From Lachnospiraceae bacterium (GTDB lineage: Bacteria > Bacillota_A > Clostridia > Lachnospirales > Lachnospiraceae), in contig JAFYAD010000296.1 in the NCBI GenBank assembly GCA_017540915.1, positions 1 to 5,520 on the forward strand: DNA of 5,520 nt, in the 5' to 3' direction. Below the pieces are notes generated by a model. The model worked only from the letters and a program-made list of their open reading frames with translations. It was not told the origin of the DNA and did no database searches. Position numbers and translations under genes: made by a program. Positions 1 to 5,520 of the stretch are shown one piece after another. Position 1 is the stretch's first letter; each line of letters begins with the position of its first letter.

Positions 1-324
1 CACAAGATCCGCCATCTCCGCTGTCCCCCAGAAGGTGAACACTATGACAGAAGCCGTCTCGGCAGACAGGTTTATACCCATGGCTTTGGTAGCGCCAAAA
101 TACACCAGAAACAGCAGTACCATCTGAGGCATGATGCGCACTATCTCCAGGTATACCCGCAGGACTCCCCTCACTACCGGCGACTTAAAGGTCATGGCAA
201 CACCCAGGACCGTTCCCAATATAATACTGATGCAAACAGATACAAGGCTTATGCGGAGAGCCACCAGCAGTCCGCCCAAAAGCCTTATCATGTTGCTTCC
301 TTTCAGCAATACTTCAAATCCCAT
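1..324 (-). CDS. Polar amino acid ABC transporter permease 2 (HisM/GlnP type), 3' end outside window
   Basis: This is the membrane subunit of a polar-amino-acid uptake (PAAT) ABC importer. Only the first 108 residues are in the window, and the frame is open to the left edge. The ATG at 322-324 lies one base after the TAA of the previous permease and has a GGGAG Shine-Dalgarno about 6 bases upstream, overlapping the end of that gene, so the two are probably translationally coupled. Two membrane segments are visible, near residues 16-37 and 68-85. The stretch YLEIVRIMPQMVLLFLVYFG matches the conserved 'E-x-x-R-x-x-P-x-x-x-x-L' block of this family. It is similar in layout to, but clearly diverged from, the permease upstream (326-985), as expected of a heterodimeric pair. 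The missing half should carry the EAA loop that contacts the ATPase. The substrate is inferred as cysteine/cystine from context. I am confident of the family and less so of the substrate. Confidence 0.88.
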   Translation of the reverse strand, partial: MGFEVLLKGSNMIRLLGGLLVALRISLVSVCISIILGTVLGVAMTFKSPVVRGVLRVYLEIVRIMPQMVLLFLVYFGATKAMGINLSAETASVIVFTFWGTAEMADLV

Positions 325-325
325 A

Positions 326-985
326 TTAATCTCCCAACATCCGAAATCTTGCTTTCTTTTCTATTACACTTCCCAGCACCGAAACCGGCAGCAGCATCAC
401 AATATAGAAAACAACGAGCAAAAACAGGGCTTCCGTCGTATTATAGTAAAGACCGATCAGATCCTTTGCCGTGAACATCAGATCCATAAGGCTGATGGCT
501 GAAAACACACTGGTCTCCTTTAACAGGAAGATCACGTTGGCGATCACCGCAGGTACGCTAAGGGTCAGTGCCTGGGGAAATATAACGCTGAAAAAGGCCT
601 GTGGTTTTGTCATGCCCAGTGCTACCGCGCTCTCCGTCTGCATCCTGGGGATGGAATCCAATCCGCTTCTGATTGCCTCAGACATGTAGCTTCCTCCCAG
701 AAGTCCAAGCCCTACTATACCGCAGCTTTCCGCCGAAACAGAAATACCCGCCTTGGGTAACCCAAAATATATAAAGAACAGCTGAACCAGCAACGGGGTG
801 TTTCTGAAAACCTCCACGTATACGTCCATTATTTTGGACAATATTGGCACCCTGAAATGAATCAAAAATGCCGACAGGATGCCTATGGCAAAAGACAGCA
901 GTATCCCGAGCCACCCTATCCGTATTGTGAGGAAAAATGCCTGCTCGTATCTTGGCAGATATGAGGTGATAACTTCAAAATCCAT
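326..985 (-). CDS. Polar amino acid ABC transporter permease 1 (HisM/GlnP/TcyB type)
   Basis: A 219-residue integral membrane permease of the PAAT family, full length for the family. Hydrophobic segments lie near residues 17-42, 58-77, 88-101, 144-165 and 186-207. The block EVFRNTPLLVQLFFIYFGLP (58-77) is the typical family signature. The EAA-type cytoplasmic loop (about 107-139, with ESAVALGMTKPQAFFSVIFP) is the contact site for an ATPase. The ATG at 983-985 starts 5 bases after the metI stop. Its Shine-Dalgarno is weak, which suggests translational coupling to metI. A second, different PAAT permease follows one base after its stop. The pair would form the channel for the CjaA-like half of the fused receptor encoded upstream. 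No PAAT-type ATPase is visible in the window, so it either uses the MetN protein or an ATPase encoded beyond the left edge. Substrate assignment to cysteine/cystine is inference. Confidence 0.92.
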   Translation of the reverse strand: MDFEVITSYLPRYEQAFFLTIRIGWLGILLSFAIGILSAFLIHFRVPILSKIMDVYVEVFRNTPLLVQLFFIYFGLPKAGISVSAESCGIVGLGLLGGSYMSEAIRSGLDSIPRMQTESAVALGMTKPQAFFSVIFPQALTLSVPAVIANVIFLLKETSVFSAISLMDLMFTAKDLIGLYYNTTEALFLLVVFYIVMLLPVSVLGSVIEKKARFRMLGD

Positions 986-990
986 AGTGT

Positions 991-1650
991 TTACCGCTTT
1001 CTGTGATCAAGTTTTGCAGACAGCTTCGTGCCTGTATTCTGTATGATCTGGAATATTACGATCAACAGTATCACTGTTATGATCATGATATCTGTCTGCC
1101 ACCTGTAGTAGCCGTATCTCACCGCGATATCTCCGAGGCCTCCTCCGCCTACCGTTCCGGACATGGCAGAATATCCCAGCAGAAGTCCTGTGGTAATGGT
1201 AAATCCGGTCATCAGTGAGGTCTTTGCCTCCACCAGCAAAACCTTTGTGATGATCTGGAAGTTGTCTGCTCCCATCGCCCTGGCAGCCTCTATCACACCG
1301 GCATCCACGTCTGTAAGTGACGATTCCACAACTCTGGCTATATAAGGCGCTGCGCAAACCACCAGAGGTACGATGGTAGCCGTTGAACCGTAGCTTTGTC
1401 CTACTATGGCTCTCGTCACCGGTATCAGCAGTATGAGCAGGATCAAAAACGGGATACTGCGTATGATATTGCAGATAAAATCAATCAGTTTATACACAGG
1501 TTTGCAGGGCCTTAAGCCTTTTCCTCCTGATACATACAACAGAATCCCTAAAGGAAGTCCTATGATATAGCCTGCGATCACCGAACCGAAGGTCATGTAC
1601 AGGGTCTCCCCTATACCCTCTATTAGCATTTTGATCACACTCTCATTCAT
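991..1650 (-). CDS. metI: Methionine-type ABC transporter permease MetI
   Basis: A 219-residue permease of the methionine uptake (MUT) family, the usual length for MetI, with about five membrane segments (near 17-40, 57-80, 92-108, 146-166 and 187-205). Recognisable blocks are NIIRSIPFLILLILLIP (61-77), the EAA loop EAARAMGADNFQIITKVLLVEA (121-142) that docks on MetN, and the glycine-rich SGTVGGGGLGDIAVRYGY (164-181) that is diagnostic of MetI. The ATG (1648-1650) overlaps the end of the ATPase gene by 8 bases (ATGAATGA), giving direct translational coupling. It forms a homodimeric channel with MetN in known MetNI systems. Here it is followed directly by two unrelated-type PAAT permeases, which is not the normal metNIQ order. 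Methionine is the family substrate, but some members take other amino acids. Confidence 0.95.
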   Translation of the reverse strand: MNESVIKMLIEGIGETLYMTFGSVIAGYIIGLPLGILLYVSGGKGLRPCKPVYKLIDFICNIIRSIPFLILLILLIPVTRAIVGQSYGSTATIVPLVVCAAPYIARVVESSLTDVDAGVIEAARAMGADNFQIITKVLLVEAKTSLMTGFTITTGLLLGYSAMSGTVGGGGLGDIAVRYGYYRWQTDIMIITVILLIVIFQIIQNTGTKLSAKLDHRKR

Positions 1651-2656
1651 CTTCTTCTGTCTCCTTTACCGATAATCCTGCTTTTTTCAACTCGTCTATG
1701 ATCTCTTCCTGTTTTGAGTGGTCCTCGGGAAGCCCCAGGATCATCTCTCCCACGGCTTTTCCGCCAACATTCCTCGTGTCTGCCCTCAGGATGTTCACCG
1801 GGGACTGAACCTTCAATATCAGATTTGCTATCACCGGTTCGTAAGCCGAATTCTCCCTGAAGACAATGCGGATCTTCCGCCTTGCCTCAAGCGAATCCCG
1901 ATGCACTCCTTTTATCTGTTTTCCCGATAGAAGCTCCTTTGCTGCATCCGACCGCGGATCGGAAAAAATACTCTCCACGAGACCTTCCTCAACCAGCTTT
2001 CCGCCGTCTATGATGGCGACATGCCTGCATATATCCGTAACCACCGACATCTGATGCGTTATGATGACAACGGTAATACCAAGCTTTTCGTTGATCTCGC
2101 GGATCAGCCCCAGTACTCCCGCCGTCGTCTGCGGATCTAGGGCACTGGTGGCCTCGTCGCACAACAGTATTTCCGGATCCGTGGCAAGGGCTCTGGCTAT
2201 TGCCACGCGTTGCTTCTGTCCTCCGGACAGCTGTGAAGGATAAGCTTTCTCTTTGTCCGACAGACCCACCAGATTCAGGAGTTCCCTCGCTCTGACCCGG
2301 GCATCCTTTTTCTTTACACCGCTTATCTCCAGTGGAAAACACACATTATCGATGACGTTTTTTTGTTCCAAAAGGTTGAAATTCTGGAAGATCATGCCGA
2401 TCCGGCGTCTCAATTTACGCAGCGCTTTTGGGGATAGTTCACCAAGGTTAACACCGTCTATGAAAACACTGCCTTCTGTAGGTCTCTCCAGAAAATTGAT
2501 AGAACGGACCAGTGTGCTCTTGCCCGCTCCGGACATTCCTATTATCCCGAAAATATCCCCTTTTTCCACGTTAAGGCTCACTCCTTTAAGTGCCGTCACG
2601 GTATCTCCGTCTATCTCAAATACTTTGGTAAGGTTTTTAATCTCTATTGCACTCAT
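1643..2656 (-). CDS. metN: Methionine ABC transporter ATPase MetN with C-terminal NIL domain
   Basis: ATP-binding subunit of a methionine-type importer, 337 residues from the chosen start. Visible motifs are Walker A GMSGAGKST (40-48), Q-loop Gln91 in FQNFNLL, the signature LSGGQKQRVAIARAL (143-157), Walker B ILLCDE (163-168), D-loop SALD (171-174) and H-loop His201 in IITHQM. After residue 255 comes a NIL (ACT-like) domain, with NILRADTRNVGGKAVGEMIL (288-307), which in known MetN proteins binds methionine and shuts down transport (trans-inhibition). The frame is open for 26 more codons upstream to 2734. I chose the ATG at 2654-2656 because it begins the conserved MSAIEIKNL, has GGAG 8 bases upstream, and the upstream extension would run through a hairpin. 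It is the only ATPase gene in the window, although two permease classes are encoded. Confidence 0.95.
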   Translation of the reverse strand: MSAIEIKNLTKVFEIDGDTVTALKGVSLNVEKGDIFGIIGMSGAGKSTLVRSINFLERPTEGSVFIDGVNLGELSPKALRKLRRRIGMIFQNFNLLEQKNVIDNVCFPLEISGVKKKDARVRARELLNLVGLSDKEKAYPSQLSGGQKQRVAIARALATDPEILLCDEATSALDPQTTAGVLGLIREINEKLGITVVIITHQMSVVTDICRHVAIIDGGKLVEEGLVESIFSDPRSDAAKELLSGKQIKGVHRDSLEARRKIRIVFRENSAYEPVIANLILKVQSPVNILRADTRNVGGKAVGEMILGLPEDHSKQEEIIDELKKAGLSVKETEEDE

Positions 2657-2664
2657 ATACAGGT

Positions 2665-2668
2665 CTCC
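2665..2668 (-). promoter_or_regulatory. Ribosome binding site deciding the metN start
   Basis: GGAG lies 8 bases upstream of the ATG at 2654-2656. It supports starting MetN at MSAIEI rather than at the longer open frame reaching 2734. Confidence 0.6.
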
Positions 2669-2681
2669 ATGTGATCGTGAT

Positions 2682-2723
2682 AAATAAAAGCAAAGAAGGG
2701 AGAAGCTAAAGCAACCTCTCCCT
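2682..2723 (-). terminator. Intercistronic hairpin with T-rich tail between receptor gene and metN
   Basis: In transcript sense the arms AGGGAGA (2723-2717) and TCTCCCT (2703-2697) are perfectly complementary. Four further pairs, including G-U wobbles, extend the stem inward to about 11 bp with a 5-base loop. A T-rich but interrupted tract follows (2696-2682, TCTTTGCTTTTATTT). It sits 20 bases after the receptor stop codon and about 40 bases before metN. Such elements usually act as a partial terminator or a 3' stabiliser that keeps the binding protein more abundant than the ATPase and permeases. The interrupted T tract argues for a leaky terminator. Confidence 0.6.
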
Positions 2724-2743
2724 GCAAAAATCATATAAAATAA

Positions 2744-4468
2744 CTACTCCTCAAAGAAGATAACTGCTCCGTCATATGTATCCTCGATGAATTTTTTGAT
2801 ATCATCCGAGCGTAATACTGTCACCAGCGCCTTGATCTTATCGGTGTTCTCATTTCCCTCCAGTACACCGATGATGTTAACGTAAGTCTGAGCGGCAACC
2901 GAATCACTGGCCTCATATGCAATGGAGTCTCTTCCTACGGAATAACCGGCTTCAAGAGCGTAATTGCCGTTTAAGATCACATATTCCACCTCGCTCACAA
3001 CTCTTGCAACCTGGGCTGCCTCAAGCTCAACAAACTCAATATTATGCTCATTTTCTTCAATATCATTCACTGTGGCGGTAAGTCCTGCGCCATCCTTCAA
3101 TTTGATGAGACCGTTATCCTGTAACAGGAGAAGTGCTCTTGCCTCGTTTGTGGTGTCATTGGGGATTGCTATTCTGTCTCCGTCTGCTATCTCATCAAGA
3201 CTTCCCTTTGTACCGGGATAAATTCCAAAGGGCTCATAATGTATTCCGCCTGCGTTTACGATGTGTGTTCCCTGCTCTTCGTTAAAACTGTTAAGATACG
3301 GAACATGCTCCATGTAATTTGCGTCAAACTCTCCTGACTCTACCACAAAGTTCGGCTGTACATAATCTTCGAATTCTACAACATCCAGCTCATATCCGTA
3401 ATCTTTGAGGATCTCTGCTGCTTTTGCGAGGATCTCAGCATGGGGTACCGGTGAAGCTGCGATCTTGATGGTCTCACCGTTTCCGGGTACAATATCGAGA
3501 GCGCCGGTCGTTGCTGCGCTTGTGTCTGCGGCATTTGCTGTATCTGCTGAGCCTTCAACCTTGCCGCCTTCCACTACCAGAGTATCCTCATAGTCTGCAC
3601 CGTATGTATCCAGGAGTGTTGCCTCATAATCCGCATGGAAGAAGTTCTCTTTACCAAGGCTTTCAATCTCGCTGTTAAGCCAGTCTAAAAGTGAGCTGTT
3701 GCCCTTTGAAACAGCCGGCGCGATGGTATCCTGGCTTCCCAGTGAAGGAATGCCTACCACATAGCCTGCATTCTCAATGGCATATGCGATAACCTCGGTG
3801 TTGTCGTTTGCCCATGCAACACCGGTTCCATTCTCGAAAGCAGTCTTTGCAGATGCGTAAGTATCGAATTTCTGGAGTGTGATCTCCGGGTTGTTCTTCT
3901 CAAGATAGGTTTCTGCTGTTGTGCCTGAGATCACTATCACCTGATCATCTGCAGAGATCTGTGAAAGATCCTCGATTACATTGTCCTCGTGAGACACAAC
4001 GCCCAGAGCAACATTCATGTAAGGAAGTGCGAAATCAACCTTCTGTGCTCTCTCCTCTGTCACCGTGAAGTTTGCGAGGACTATATCGACCTTGCCGGTC
4101 TCGAGGTATTCAACCCTGCTGGCTGCCTCGGTGGACACATAATTGATCTTAAGTCCAAGATCCTGACCGATCCTCTCAGCAAAATATACATCATATCCCT
4201 GATATTCGCCGTTCTCATCGACATAACCGAATGGGTTCTTGTCAGAGAATACACCGATATTGATCTCTCCGCTGCTCTTGATCTCATCAAGTGTTCTGTA
4301 CACCCGGTCCGAACCATCCGGTGTTTCTGCTGTCGTCGCTGTATCTGTCGTTCCCGCGGGCTTATCATTTGTCTTAGCCGAAGCCTGACCGCATCCCGTG
4401 AGAGCTGCGGCTCCCAAAGCCAGTGTCAAGGATCCTGTTATTATCCTGTTTATCAATCTCTTTTTCAT
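2744..4468 (-). CDS. Fused double substrate-binding lipoprotein: CjaA-like cysteine-type domain plus MetQ/NlpA domain
   Basis: A 574-residue receptor, about twice the usual size because two different binding proteins are fused. Residues 1-26 form a lipoprotein signal peptide with lipobox LTGC; Cys26 would be lipidated. A Thr/Ala-rich tether (27-54) precedes a type 3 periplasmic-binding domain (about 57-300). This holds GYDVYFAERIG (91-101), GKVDIVLANFTVTEERAQKV (125-144) and the ending VVEGGK (298-303). From memory it resembles Campylobacter CjaA, a cysteine-binding protein, more than glutamine or arginine receptors. A low-complexity Ala/Thr/Asp linker (about 304-330) leads to a complete NlpA/MetQ domain (333-574), with ASPVPHAEIL (338-347), YVQPNF (369-374), DANYMEHVPYL (382-392), IPNDTTNEARALLLL (435-449) and LNGNYAL (499-505). 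The ATG at 4466-4468 has GGGAG 10 bases upstream. The gene ends in TAG. It is first in the transporter operon, behind the Cys-leader attenuator. Ligands are inferred: cysteine/cystine for domain 1, methionine for domain 2. Confidence 0.95.
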   Translation of the reverse strand: MKKRLINRIITGSLTLALGAAALTGCGQASAKTNDKPAGTTDTATTAETPDGSDRVYRTLDEIKSSGEINIGVFSDKNPFGYVDENGEYQGYDVYFAERIGQDLGLKINYVSTEAASRVEYLETGKVDIVLANFTVTEERAQKVDFALPYMNVALGVVSHEDNVIEDLSQISADDQVIVISGTTAETYLEKNNPEITLQKFDTYASAKTAFENGTGVAWANDNTEVIAYAIENAGYVVGIPSLGSQDTIAPAVSKGNSSLLDWLNSEIESLGKENFFHADYEATLLDTYGADYEDTLVVEGGKVEGSADTANAADTSAATTGALDIVPGNGETIKIAASPVPHAEILAKAAEILKDYGYELDVVEFEDYVQPNFVVESGEFDANYMEHVPYLNSFNEEQGTHIVNAGGIHYEPFGIYPGTKGSLDEIADGDRIAIPNDTTNEARALLLLQDNGLIKLKDGAGLTATVNDIEENEHNIEFVELEAAQVARVVSEVEYVILNGNYALEAGYSVGRDSIAYEASDSVAAQTYVNIIGVLEGNENTDKIKALVTVLRSDDIKKFIEDTYDGAVIFFEE

Positions 4469-4478
4469 AATCTTTATT

Positions 4479-4483
4479 CTCCC
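4479..4483 (-). promoter_or_regulatory. Ribosome binding site of the fused receptor gene
   Basis: GGGAG lies 10 bases upstream of the ATG at 4466-4468, downstream of the attenuator terminator. The receptor is therefore translated from its own site and is not coupled to the leader ORF. Confidence 0.7.
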
Positions 4484-4510
4484 TTAATTCGTTTTATTTT
4501 GTGATCAATC

Positions 4511-4536
4511 TTATGCACAGATGTTTTTTGGCATAA
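4511..4536 (-). repeat. Inverted repeat TTATGC/GCATAA after the attenuator terminator
   Basis: Six-base arms TTATGC and GCATAA are separated by 14 bases. The arm nearer the promoter overlaps the last bases of the terminator T tract. It could cap the 5' end of the read-through message, but the AT-rich stem is weak and may be chance. Confidence 0.25.
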
Positions 4537-4561
4537 AAAAACCCGGCGTTATCATCCCGGG
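4535..4561 (-). terminator. Intrinsic terminator of the cysteine attenuator
   Basis: In transcript sense CCCGG (4561-4557), a 10-base loop and CCGGG (4546-4542) are followed at once by seven T (4541-4535). It lies after the leader ORF and 66 bases before the receptor start codon, where it would stop transcription before the operon. The stem is short but all G-C. Its 5' arm can also pair with an upstream leader segment (4648-4640), the arrangement expected of an attenuator. Confidence 0.8.
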
Positions 4562-4648
4562 CAACAGTGACTTGTATAAAACGCAGGATCACATGGATCT
4601 GCGGTCAGAATGGTAACTCCGACAACAAGCCGTCTGACATGCCCGATG
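4553..4648 (-). promoter_or_regulatory. Predicted antiterminator pairing, leader segment 4648-4640 with 4563-4553
   Basis: CATCGGGCA (leader codons 21-23) is complementary to TGCCCG-GG-ATG, which contains the terminator 5' arm: six continuous pairs, a two-base bulge, then three pairs. Forming it would destroy the terminator stem. The Cys codons themselves (TGCTGC, 4669-4664) can pair with GCAGCA (4652-4647), and TGCCGA (4663-4658) can pair with TCGGGCA (4646-4640) with one bulge. Either alternative would hold the antiterminator segment when no ribosome occupies the Cys codons. A ribosome stalled at codons 14-16 would free it, since the segment starts about 13 bases beyond codon 16. The pairings are read by eye, and no energies were calculated. 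Confidence 0.6.
4575..4603 (-). promoter_or_regulatory. Hairpin over the leader stop codon followed by TTTTATA
   Basis: CGCAGATC (4603-4596) and GATC-C-TGCG (4590-4582) pair as 8 bp with one bulged C and a 5-base loop. TTTTATA (4581-4575) follows. The stem includes the leader stop codon (4591-4589), so a terminating ribosome would disrupt it. It could be a pause hairpin or a first weak terminator. The T run is short. Confidence 0.4.
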
Positions 4649-4708
4649 CTGCAACATTCGGCAGCAGCACATGACTTTATTCATTTCGGAAAAAACTGTT
4701 CTTCTCAT
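4589..4708 (-). CDS. Cysteine-rich leader peptide (39 aa), attenuator uORF
   Basis: A 39-residue ORF starts at the ATG 4708-4706 and ends with TGA at 4591-4589. It has a perfect AAAGGAGG Shine-Dalgarno (4725-4718) 9 bases upstream, the best ribosome site in the window. The peptide has six Cys (14, 15, 16, 24, 28, 29), including a CCC run and a CC pair, encoded TGC-TGC-TGC and TGT-TGT. Otherwise it is Arg-rich, with no signal peptide or membrane segment and no family I recognise. It lies between the predicted promoter and an intrinsic terminator, ahead of a sulfur-amino-acid transporter operon. By analogy with amino-acid leader peptides such as the trp and his leaders, its job would be to make a ribosome stall when charged Cys-tRNA is scarce, letting RNA polymerase read into the operon. 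The peptide itself probably has no function. It is too short for most gene finders and easily missed. Confidence 0.75.
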   Translation of the reverse strand: MRRTVFSEMNKVMCCCRMLQHRACQTACCRSYHSDRRSM

Positions 4709-4717
4709 TTTCTTCTG

Positions 4718-4725
4718 CCTCCTTT
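4718..4725 (-). promoter_or_regulatory. Strong Shine-Dalgarno of the leader peptide
   Basis: AAAGGAGG lies 9 bases before the leader ATG (4708-4706), with A-rich flanks and no competing structure evident. It is the main reason to accept this short ORF as translated. Confidence 0.75.
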
Positions 4726-4749
4726 GTCTTTGATTTCTTTTTCCCTTTC

Positions 4750-4762
4750 GATTGATGCAATC
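4750..4762 (-). repeat. Small palindrome GATTG-N3-CAATC near the predicted transcript start
   Basis: Perfect 5-base arms are separated by three bases. The site overlaps the 3' half of the -10 hexamer and the predicted start of transcription. It could be a repressor site or a 5' stabilising stem, but it is short enough to be chance. Confidence 0.25.
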
Positions 4763-4788
4763 CTATCACAATAAAAGGTGTTTGAAAA
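4760..4788 (-). promoter_or_regulatory. Predicted sigma-A promoter of the leader/transporter operon
   Basis: In transcript sense a weak -35 TTTTCA (4788-4783) lies 17 bases before TAGGAT (4765-4760). TGA immediately before the latter gives an extended -10 (TGATAGGAT). The start would be near 4753, leaving a leader of about 45 bases before the uORF. The -35 matches consensus poorly, as expected of an activated promoter, and an inverted repeat is centred about 66 bases upstream of the start. Confidence 0.55.
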
Positions 4789-4808
4789 ATCGTTAAAAAT
4801 TATCGGCT

Positions 4809-4829
4809 GTTATAGGCTCAACCTATAAC
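4809..4829. promoter_or_regulatory. MET-box-like LysR-type operator (8-5-8 inverted repeat)
   Basis: The arms GTTATAGG and CCTATAAC are perfectly complementary around a 5-base spacer. The 17-base core TATAGGTTGAGCCTATA matches the MET-box consensus TATAGTTTNAAACTATA, described for LysR-type methionine regulators of Streptococcaceae, at 13 of 16 defined positions. Its centre (4819) is about 66 bases upstream of the predicted start, the usual site where LysR-type activators bind. It is not followed by a T tract on either strand, so it is not a terminator. The regulator is not encoded in the window. Confidence 0.6.
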
Positions 4830-4874
4830 ACGGATTGGGACGTGTATGCGCATGATCTGTTCGCGGCTTGCTGC

Positions 4875-4911
4875 AATAAAAAAGGGATATCAGCGTTATC
4901 GCCGATATCCC
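4875..4911 (-). terminator. Rho-independent terminator of ddh
   Basis: GGGATATC (4911-4904) pairs with GATATCCC (4891-4884). After one mismatch, three more G-C pairs close a 4-base loop. TTTTTTATT (4883-4875) follows. It begins about 20 bases after the ddh stop codon and separates ddh from the transporter operon. Confidence 0.9.
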
Positions 4912-4931
4912 TGTAAAGAATTATCATCATA

Positions 4932-5520
4932 TTATAAAAGATGTGCTCTGATCTCCTCGCCTGAAAGCGGGCTCATGTAAGCAGGCGCAATGTCAAATAC
5001 GGTCTTGCATCCCACAGAGCCTTCTTTGTTAAGCCTGTTGATAGCACGCGCATAAGCCACCAGAACCGATGCGGTAAACTCCGGATTTGAGTCAAGCTTT
5101 AAGCTGTACTCGATGATGGCCTTATCTTCCTTATTCCAGCCGGTCACGCCCGAACGGAACACGAAACCGCCGTGGGGAATACCTGCATGATCACGCTGCA
5201 ACTCCTCCTCAGTGATAAAATGAACGGTAGTATCATAATCTGCAAAGTAGTTGGGCATGGTCTTGATCTATTCTTCGATCTTTGCGAGATCAGCACCTTC
5301 CTCCGGCACTACGAAACACTCTCTTGTGTGTTTCTGTCTGGTAGTAAGCTCCGGGTTCTCACCTGCTCTGACTGCATTCAAAGCTTCCGGAACCGGTATT
5401 GTGTACTGCTTTCCGTTTTTAACACCTTCAATGCGTCTGATGGCGTCGGAATGGCCCTGGCTAACACCCTTGCCCCAGAATGTATAGTCATTGCCCTCAG
5501 GCAAAATGCAGTTGGCATAC
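4932..5520 (-). pseudogene. ddh: meso-diaminopimelate D-dehydrogenase (Ddh), C-terminal part, interrupted by in-frame TAG
   Basis: Ddh makes meso-diaminopimelate from tetrahydrodipicolinate, ammonia and NADPH in the cytoplasm, for lysine and peptidoglycan. The window holds the last 195 codons of an expected 320-330; the NADPH-binding start lies beyond the right edge. Family blocks visible are YTFWGKGVSQGHSDAIRRIE, TRQKHTRECFVVPEEGAD, MPNYFADYDTTVHFI, GIPHGGFVF and LKLDSNPEFTAS. The frame is continuous except for TAG at 5270-5268, between ...AKIEE and IKTMPNYF..., where homologues carry an ordinary residue, from memory usually Asp or Glu. No frameshift is involved. A truncated product would lose 112 positions, including the His and Asn of the substrate pocket (in IPHGG and SNPEF). 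Restart at the ATG 5258-5256 lacks a Shine-Dalgarno. Conservation on both sides suggests a very recent mutation, a base-call error, or readthrough. The gene ends in TAA. Confidence 0.8.
5268..5270 (-). other. In-frame amber codon inside ddh
   Basis: TAG interrupts the ddh frame with matching Ddh sequence on both sides in the same frame. One base change from GAG, CAG or AAG would explain it. TAG is also the normal stop of the fused receptor gene (2746-2744), which argues against general reassignment of TAG here. Confidence 0.85.

Follow-up and report, generated by a model that had tools for sequence, protein, structure and literature searches.

A putative cysteine-responsive, ribosome-mediated attenuator ahead of a transporter operon in Lachnospiraceae

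Introduction

What controls the transcription of an amino acid transporter operon in a member of the Lachnospiraceae? The question is raised by a 5,520-nucleotide stretch of DNA (the window: Lachnospiraceae bacterium, GenBank assembly GCA_017540915.1, contig JAFYAD010000296.1, positions 1 to 5,520), in which a short, cysteine-rich open reading frame (uORF) and an intrinsic terminator precede the operon. The original prediction had read this layout as translation-coupled attenuation that senses Cys-tRNA. From comparison with related leaders and from RNA folding, we conclude that the element is very probably a cysteine-responsive, ribosome-mediated transcription attenuator.

Results

The operon and its leader

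The genes behind the leader form a single operon (1-4468, minus strand) that combines a two-domain binding protein and one MetN-type ATPase with two kinds of permease. Their features are as follows.

2744..4468, minus strand: first structural gene, joining SBP_bac_3 and NlpA/MetQ domains in one protein (domain matches)
1643..2656, minus strand: MetN-type ATPase with a NIL domain (domain matches); an internal ATG was chosen as start, and the longest ORF reaches 2734
991..1650, minus strand: MetI-type permease, NF008049 above cut-off (family match)
326..985, minus strand: HEQRo-type amino acid permease (family match)
1..324, minus strand: another HEQRo-type permease, truncated where the window ends (family match)

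The gene order is the same in 64 of the 67 loci with enough sequence, and the named close protein relatives are from Butyrivibrio and Lachnospiraceae. The leader had also been taken as independent evidence that cysteine or cystine is the substrate. That step reaches too far, as a leader points to what is sensed and not to what is imported. The leader makes cystine more likely as the transported substrate, and the NlpA/MetQ domain in the binding protein means that methionine may be the substrate instead.

The leader itself comprises the following elements.

4718..4725, minus strand: Shine-Dalgarno sequence AAAGGAGG of the leader ORF (sequence)
4589..4708, minus strand: leader ORF (uORF), 39 codons and TGA (ORF list; recurs in 55 of the best 80 loci from 544 relatives)
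4661..4672, minus strand: control block Met-Cys-Cys-Cys (sequence; Cys/Met enrichment over 56 leaders)
4640..4646, minus strand: antiterminator strand inside the uORF (segment 2), pairing with 4563-4557 (family helix of 10 bp)
4625..4631, minus strand: second antiterminator helix, 5' strand GGCTTGT (partner-shuffle comparison)
4604..4623, minus strand: hairpin P3 near the uORF end, 4623-4618 with 4609-4604 (family hairpin; window counterpart read from sequence and fold)
4569..4575, minus strand: second antiterminator helix, 3' strand ACAAGTC (partner-shuffle comparison)
4535..4563, minus strand: terminator, with a 5' arm (4563-4557) that doubles as the antiterminator 3' strand and a U-tract at 4541-4535 (sequence, family alignment)

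As predicted, the uORF (4708-4589; translation MRRTVFSEMNKVMCCCRMLQHRACQTACCRSYHSDRRSM) carries six Cys codons, three of them consecutive (codons 14-16, 4669-4661), and AGGAGG sits 9 nt 5' of its ATG. The intrinsic terminator is likewise present, with a stem of GCCCGG (4562-4557) and CCGGGT (4546-4541), a loop of 10 and seven T at 4541-4535, and the ABC transporter genes begin at 4468. A generic terminator scan, with its loop limit of 8, missed this hairpin. The leader RNA has a better fold than its shuffled versions (z -2.57; equally good in 2 of 200). On its 5' side, on the same strand, lies a diaminopimelate dehydrogenase gene, followed by a terminator-like hairpin (4912-4883). Within 5258-5270 of the window the gene is interrupted by an in-frame TAG (5270-5268), with PF16654 on both sides; this marks either a pseudogene or a sequencing error.

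Recurrence among relatives

An alignment of 22 binding proteins led to 80 loci, the best 80 of 544 relatives among the matches listed. In 55 of these 80 loci encoding the binding protein the leader is present (54 Cys-rich upstream uORFs found by script and one, in L036, added by eye), and it is therefore more than a chance ORF. A check set beforehand, by which lack of conservation of the ORF or its Cys codons would have counted against the prediction, did not refute it: the same 55 of the best 80 loci have in common the ORF, the Cys block, the terminator and an antiterminator that covaries, while the codons ahead of the block diverge. In the remaining 25 of these 80 loci, of which 22 have upstream sequence and three have less than 300 nt upstream, no leader was found, and a scan of these 25 against known RNA families (gathering threshold, fetched length) returned no replacement element.

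Several loci depart from the common arrangement. In L002 (Butyrivibrio sp. NC2002) the last 180 nt before the binding-protein gene hold a decayed leader, MNKVMCCHMSISRKSNMSGC..., whose reading frame continues into that of the binding protein; no terminator lies between the two. In L017 and L090 about 880 nt separate the leader from the binding-protein gene, and the intervening ORF of about 200 aa has no NCBIfam match. Upstream of the binding-protein gene in L004, L008 and L012 there is another short ORF with Cys codons, MRNTCFCC(M/I)KG..., preceded by a strong Shine-Dalgarno sequence; by eye, no terminator-like hairpin with a U-tract was evident 3' of this ORF.

Two promoter types were seen with ad hoc patterns across the upstream regions of L001-L080 and the window, and no locus has both. 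The first, a palindrome followed by GA[AT]TTTTC, occurs in the window (4829-4809), in L047 and in 9 of 22 leaderless loci. The second, CCTATTGACATAGTAGG-like around -35, occurs in 20 of 56 loci with a leader and 3 of 22 without. These sequence patterns suggest that two DNA-binding regulators may act in addition to attenuation. A strict pattern for the window's inverted repeat matched 1 of 55 leaders and was set aside; by looser patterns it belongs to the promoter type found mostly at leaderless loci.

Antiterminator and terminator

The alignment of the leaders (A2) has 56 rows, 55 of them distinct. The family antiterminator, in which the uORF segment CTCCCAGGCA pairs with the terminator 5' arm TGCCTGGGAG, is paired in 97.6% of 550 cells and has 40 double-change cells. 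None of 500 shuffles scored as high, and slid controls reached at most 52.3% and at most 8 double-change cells. Unguided RNAalifold recovered the same helix. In the window it is 7 bp long (4646-4640 with 4563-4557, one G-U), compared with 10 bp in the family. Just inside it lies the second helix, which scored 11.87 with its own partner and 9.40 (sd 0.28) with shuffled partners, with 0 of 1000 shuffles as high; it also forms 7 bp in the window. Such shuffle counts are not probabilities because the leaders are related to one another.

The terminator helix pairs in 89.8% of cells of the 56-row alignment, with little covariation. A simple terminator pattern failed in 3 of the 56 leaders (L021, L025 and L058). 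The alignment count was preferred to an automatic picker, which settled on a wrong hairpin in L021, L025 and L032 at least and returned no hairpin for L047 and L058. Hairpin P3 is paired in 93.1% of cells with 34 double-change cells, as against at most 20 when slid. Pairing of the start region with the 3' part of the uORF is suggestive only, as judged from the alignment: 83.1% of cells are paired with a covariation score of 0.161 (slid versions at most 50.9% and 0.079), and the own partner scored 18.6 versus 16.7 (sd 0.33) for shuffled ones (0 of 1000), while its 16 double changes compare with up to 21 in slid versions; the window has 5 bp of it. A candidate masking hairpin for segment 2 (columns 116-122 with 135-141) was rejected; it is paired in 89.0% of cells, but its covariation does not exceed that of shuffles.

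Ribosome position

The two exclusive folds suggest how the leader could work. With ample Cys-tRNA, a ribosome would clear the Met-Cys-Cys-Cys block and cover segment 2 (4646-4640), so that the terminator 5' arm (4563-4557) would join its 3' arm and transcription would end near 4535. Under a shortage of charged tRNA-Cys, the ribosome would stall on the Cys run with its leading edge just short of segment 2. Segment 2, left free, would then pair with the terminator 5' arm, aided by the second helix (4631-4625 with 4575-4569), and this antiterminator would block the terminator and allow the transporter operon to be transcribed.

The spacing from the last-Cys position to segment 2 is fixed: 11 alignment columns, gapless in all 56 rows. 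We modeled the ribosome as a footprint extending from 18 nt upstream to 12 nt downstream of the A-site codon's first base and applied partition-function folding, an equilibrium treatment without transcription timing, to 54 of the 56 rows (L021 and L047 were dropped from the trimmed set and from folding). For a ribosome placed on the run's Cys codons, the mean antiterminator value over the 54 leaders was 0.69 and that of the terminator 0.30. The antiterminator fell to 0.16 and 0.04 with the ribosome two and three codons beyond the last Cys and to 0.00 at 4-12 codons beyond, where the terminator stood at 0.90-0.92; from 14 codons beyond, the antiterminator returned to about 0.4-0.5. By these values, therefore, the Cys run would mark the furthest point at which a stalled ribosome still spares segment 2. 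Some leaders (e.g. L028, L041, L069 and L071) reach the terminator fold at every run position.

The original prediction had pointed to six Cys codons, three of them in a row. In the window's fold model, a stalled ribosome leaves the antiterminator strand accessible only on the three-codon run; a stall at the other Cys codons (24, 28 and 29) gives the terminator (0.99-1.00).

In the median leader, 24 codons separate the run's last Cys from the uORF stop. With the ribosome at the stop codon, the mean terminator value over the 54 leaders was 0.53; relative to the Cys-stalled state it was higher in 24, lower in 5 and unchanged in 25. The window itself gave an antiterminator value of 0.94 and a terminator value of 0.06 in this position, and an antiterminator value of 0.98 with no ribosome. 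Termination under ample cysteine would presuppose some means, which the model does not supply, of keeping segment 2 unpaired while a ribosome is at the stop codon.

Other copies of the switch

Covariance model R1 begins at the last Cys codon. Alignment A3 comprises 45 of the 54 trimmed references, after removal of near-identical rows. R1 matched in 20 of 28 genomes chosen from those of the starting loci (E<=1), one of these matches (L100, E 0.85) being dropped since no leader was seen there. It also matched in at least 40 of 397 genomes drawn from the host family (E<=0.001) and at least 13 of 391 drawn from the host class (E<=0.0001). The latter two counts are lower bounds because stricter filters were used, and both draws include a few genomes already seen.

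Outside the starting loci, 37 of the 42 inspected sites precede cysteine or methionine genes. O-acetylhomoserine/O-acetylserine sulfhydrylase stands behind 21 sites (TIGR01326 above cut-off in L101, the rest assigned by the same N-terminal sequence). An SBP_bac_3 binding protein stands behind six: Pfam shows it fused to NlpA in L111 and L132, its gene runs off the end of the locus in L125 and L129, and in L116 and L136 it is unfused (SBP_bac_3 without NlpA). An NlpA lipoprotein follows three sites (L121, L141 and L143) and an HEQRo-type permease two (L139 by NCBIfam, L140 by likeness). Behind L135 is cysK (TIGR01139 above cut-off) and behind L138 a cysK-like, C-terminal PALP piece, while single sites precede an ABC ATPase (L119), an SDF-family symporter (L099) and another Cys/Met PLP enzyme (L123). 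The remaining five sites precede three GST_C-type proteins, a cyclase (L115) and, in L114, a protein with no family. The GST_C domain was assigned by Pfam PF13410 in L134 and L127, the latter 549 nt past the site, and by likeness in L117.

An SD-led start in the Cys frame is present at 34 of 38 model sites, versus 4 of 76 in the other frames; the 38 include two repeats of starting leaders (L112 and L113). Compensations in helix 1 at the new sites scored 26.8 with the own partner and 24.3 (sd 0.34) with shuffled partners (0 of 1000), a comparison in which the finding model itself favors helix 1. This scoring covered 41 of the 42 sites (without L129), and the wrong arm was taken in L116.

Which amino acid is sensed

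Over the 56 leaders, the 8 codons ending at the last-Cys position comprise 217 Cys (48%) and 129 Met (29%) of 448, while the codons before this control block, start excluded, hold 2 Cys and 10 Met of 398. Both Cys synonyms are used in the block (174 TGT, 43 TGC), and the last-Cys position is Asn in two rows, L059 and L065. These two were left out of the peptide comparison, which anchored 84 of 86 distinct peptides and gave a shared layout of a variable N-terminus, the Cys/Met block and CRM-L-x-S-[QR]-A.

The Cys-enriched block and the conserved switch fit the proposed sensing of Cys-tRNA. Sensing may not be confined to cysteine, since Met codons are enriched in the same block. A dual sensor, in which shortage of either Met-tRNA or Cys-tRNA stalls the ribosome on the same RNA switch, would account for that enrichment. 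It would also fit the Met-serving genes behind the sites (MetQ, MetN and O-acetylhomoserine sulfhydrylase) and the composition of the leaders, which average 3.80 Cys and 2.22 Met before transporters (59 leaders) and 2.44 and 1.22 before the sulfhydrylase (18 leaders). The last stall site is a Cys, however, because the codon directly 5' of Arg is Cys in 96% of the 84 peptides; ATG may persist for other reasons, such as ATGTGT short-unit repetition or RNA constraint; and a shortage of Met would slow initiation everywhere as well. On balance we regard dual sensing as a serious but rather unlikely alternative.

The peptide might instead act itself: rich in Cys, it could bind metal or sense thiol redox and, in cis or trans, cause stalling or serve as a signal. 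Its Cys content and conserved tail invite this reading, but changes in the tail track base pairing: the +5 Q/R codon (CAG/CGG) faces U/C in the terminator arm as 29 A-U, 24 G-C and 1 G-U pairs, with 1 unpaired. In L142, moreover, the ORF ends after CCRMR, yet the pairing segment carries on outside it; the RNA, rather than the peptide tail, is therefore what is conserved. The number and order of Cys residues also vary widely, and we consider action of the peptide very improbable.

Least credible of all is direct binding of a ligand or tRNA by a riboswitch or T-box-like element, with the ORF incidental. The well-conserved P3 and the start-region helix could belong to such an element, but no Rfam family matched the window at E<=1, so that, as predicted, neither an S-box nor a T-box was found there, and the leaders of five relatives gave no match either. 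Upstream of the switch, moreover, it is the Cys and Met codons that are kept; both synonyms serve for Cys, and the codons share their frame with an SD-led start.

Discussion

Our comparison thus favors an attenuator in which a ribosome translating the uORF would report on the supply of charged tRNA-Cys. The element resembles the trp/his-type attenuators, as described in the relevant parts of PMC9413887 and PMC2965389, in its short ORF, where codons for the regulated amino acid stand in tandem, its intrinsic terminator, its mutually exclusive antiterminator and the genes for that amino acid behind it. In contrast to those systems, cysteine (with Met) here replaces histidine or tryptophan, several operons share one element, and the uORF itself contains the antiterminator strand, 11 alignment columns past the last-Cys position. 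The same sources place His leader-peptide attenuators in Firmicutes.

Cysteine leaders are known from other phyla. In Actinobacteria, Cys-run leader ORFs precede cys operons, with the run near the stop codon and, in the portion of PMC1262725 that deals with them, no conserved terminator hairpin; a cysteine-responsive leader in mycobacteria is the subject of Canestrari 2020, going by its title as cited in PMC9094748. The Lachnospiraceae element shares the Cys-run leader ORF with those of PMC1262725 and, unlike them as described there, has an intrinsic terminator, a covarying antiterminator and a stop codon far behind the run. The uORFC-8-2 element before cysS in Rhodobacterales has tandem Cys codons (usually 14 and 15) and a terminal U run, and ribosome-mediated attenuation has been proposed for it (as outlined in PMC8632094). 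Tandem Cys codons in a uORF and the U run are common to both elements; by its description there, uORFC-8-2 differs in its phylum, in preceding a cysteinyl-tRNA synthetase gene and in its two-stem structure, the first stem of which contains the Cys codons. Our literature search found no cysteine leader for Lachnospiraceae; most subscription journals were outside its scope, so absence is not proven. Since cysteine leaders are known elsewhere, the Cys/Met block is the feature that may make the Lachnospiraceae element a new variant.

A broader reading, which we offer as speculation and think improbable, is that a single switch serves the sulfur regulon of the Lachnospiraceae. Its interleaved Met/Cys block would read both sulfur amino acids and would be adapted in length and composition to the downstream gene, and the uORF start region would pair with its own 3' end, so that only the pioneer ribosome would read the gauge.

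If the attenuator proposed here is real, a large family of gut and rumen bacteria would possess a directly testable cysteine gauge for which no Rfam element is recognised, and cysteine would join the amino acids served by leader-peptide attenuators in Firmicutes. The predicted shared regulon would comprise uptake, O-acetylhomoserine sulfhydrylase and cysK, and the Cys/Met block would allow one to ask whether a single leader senses two amino acids.
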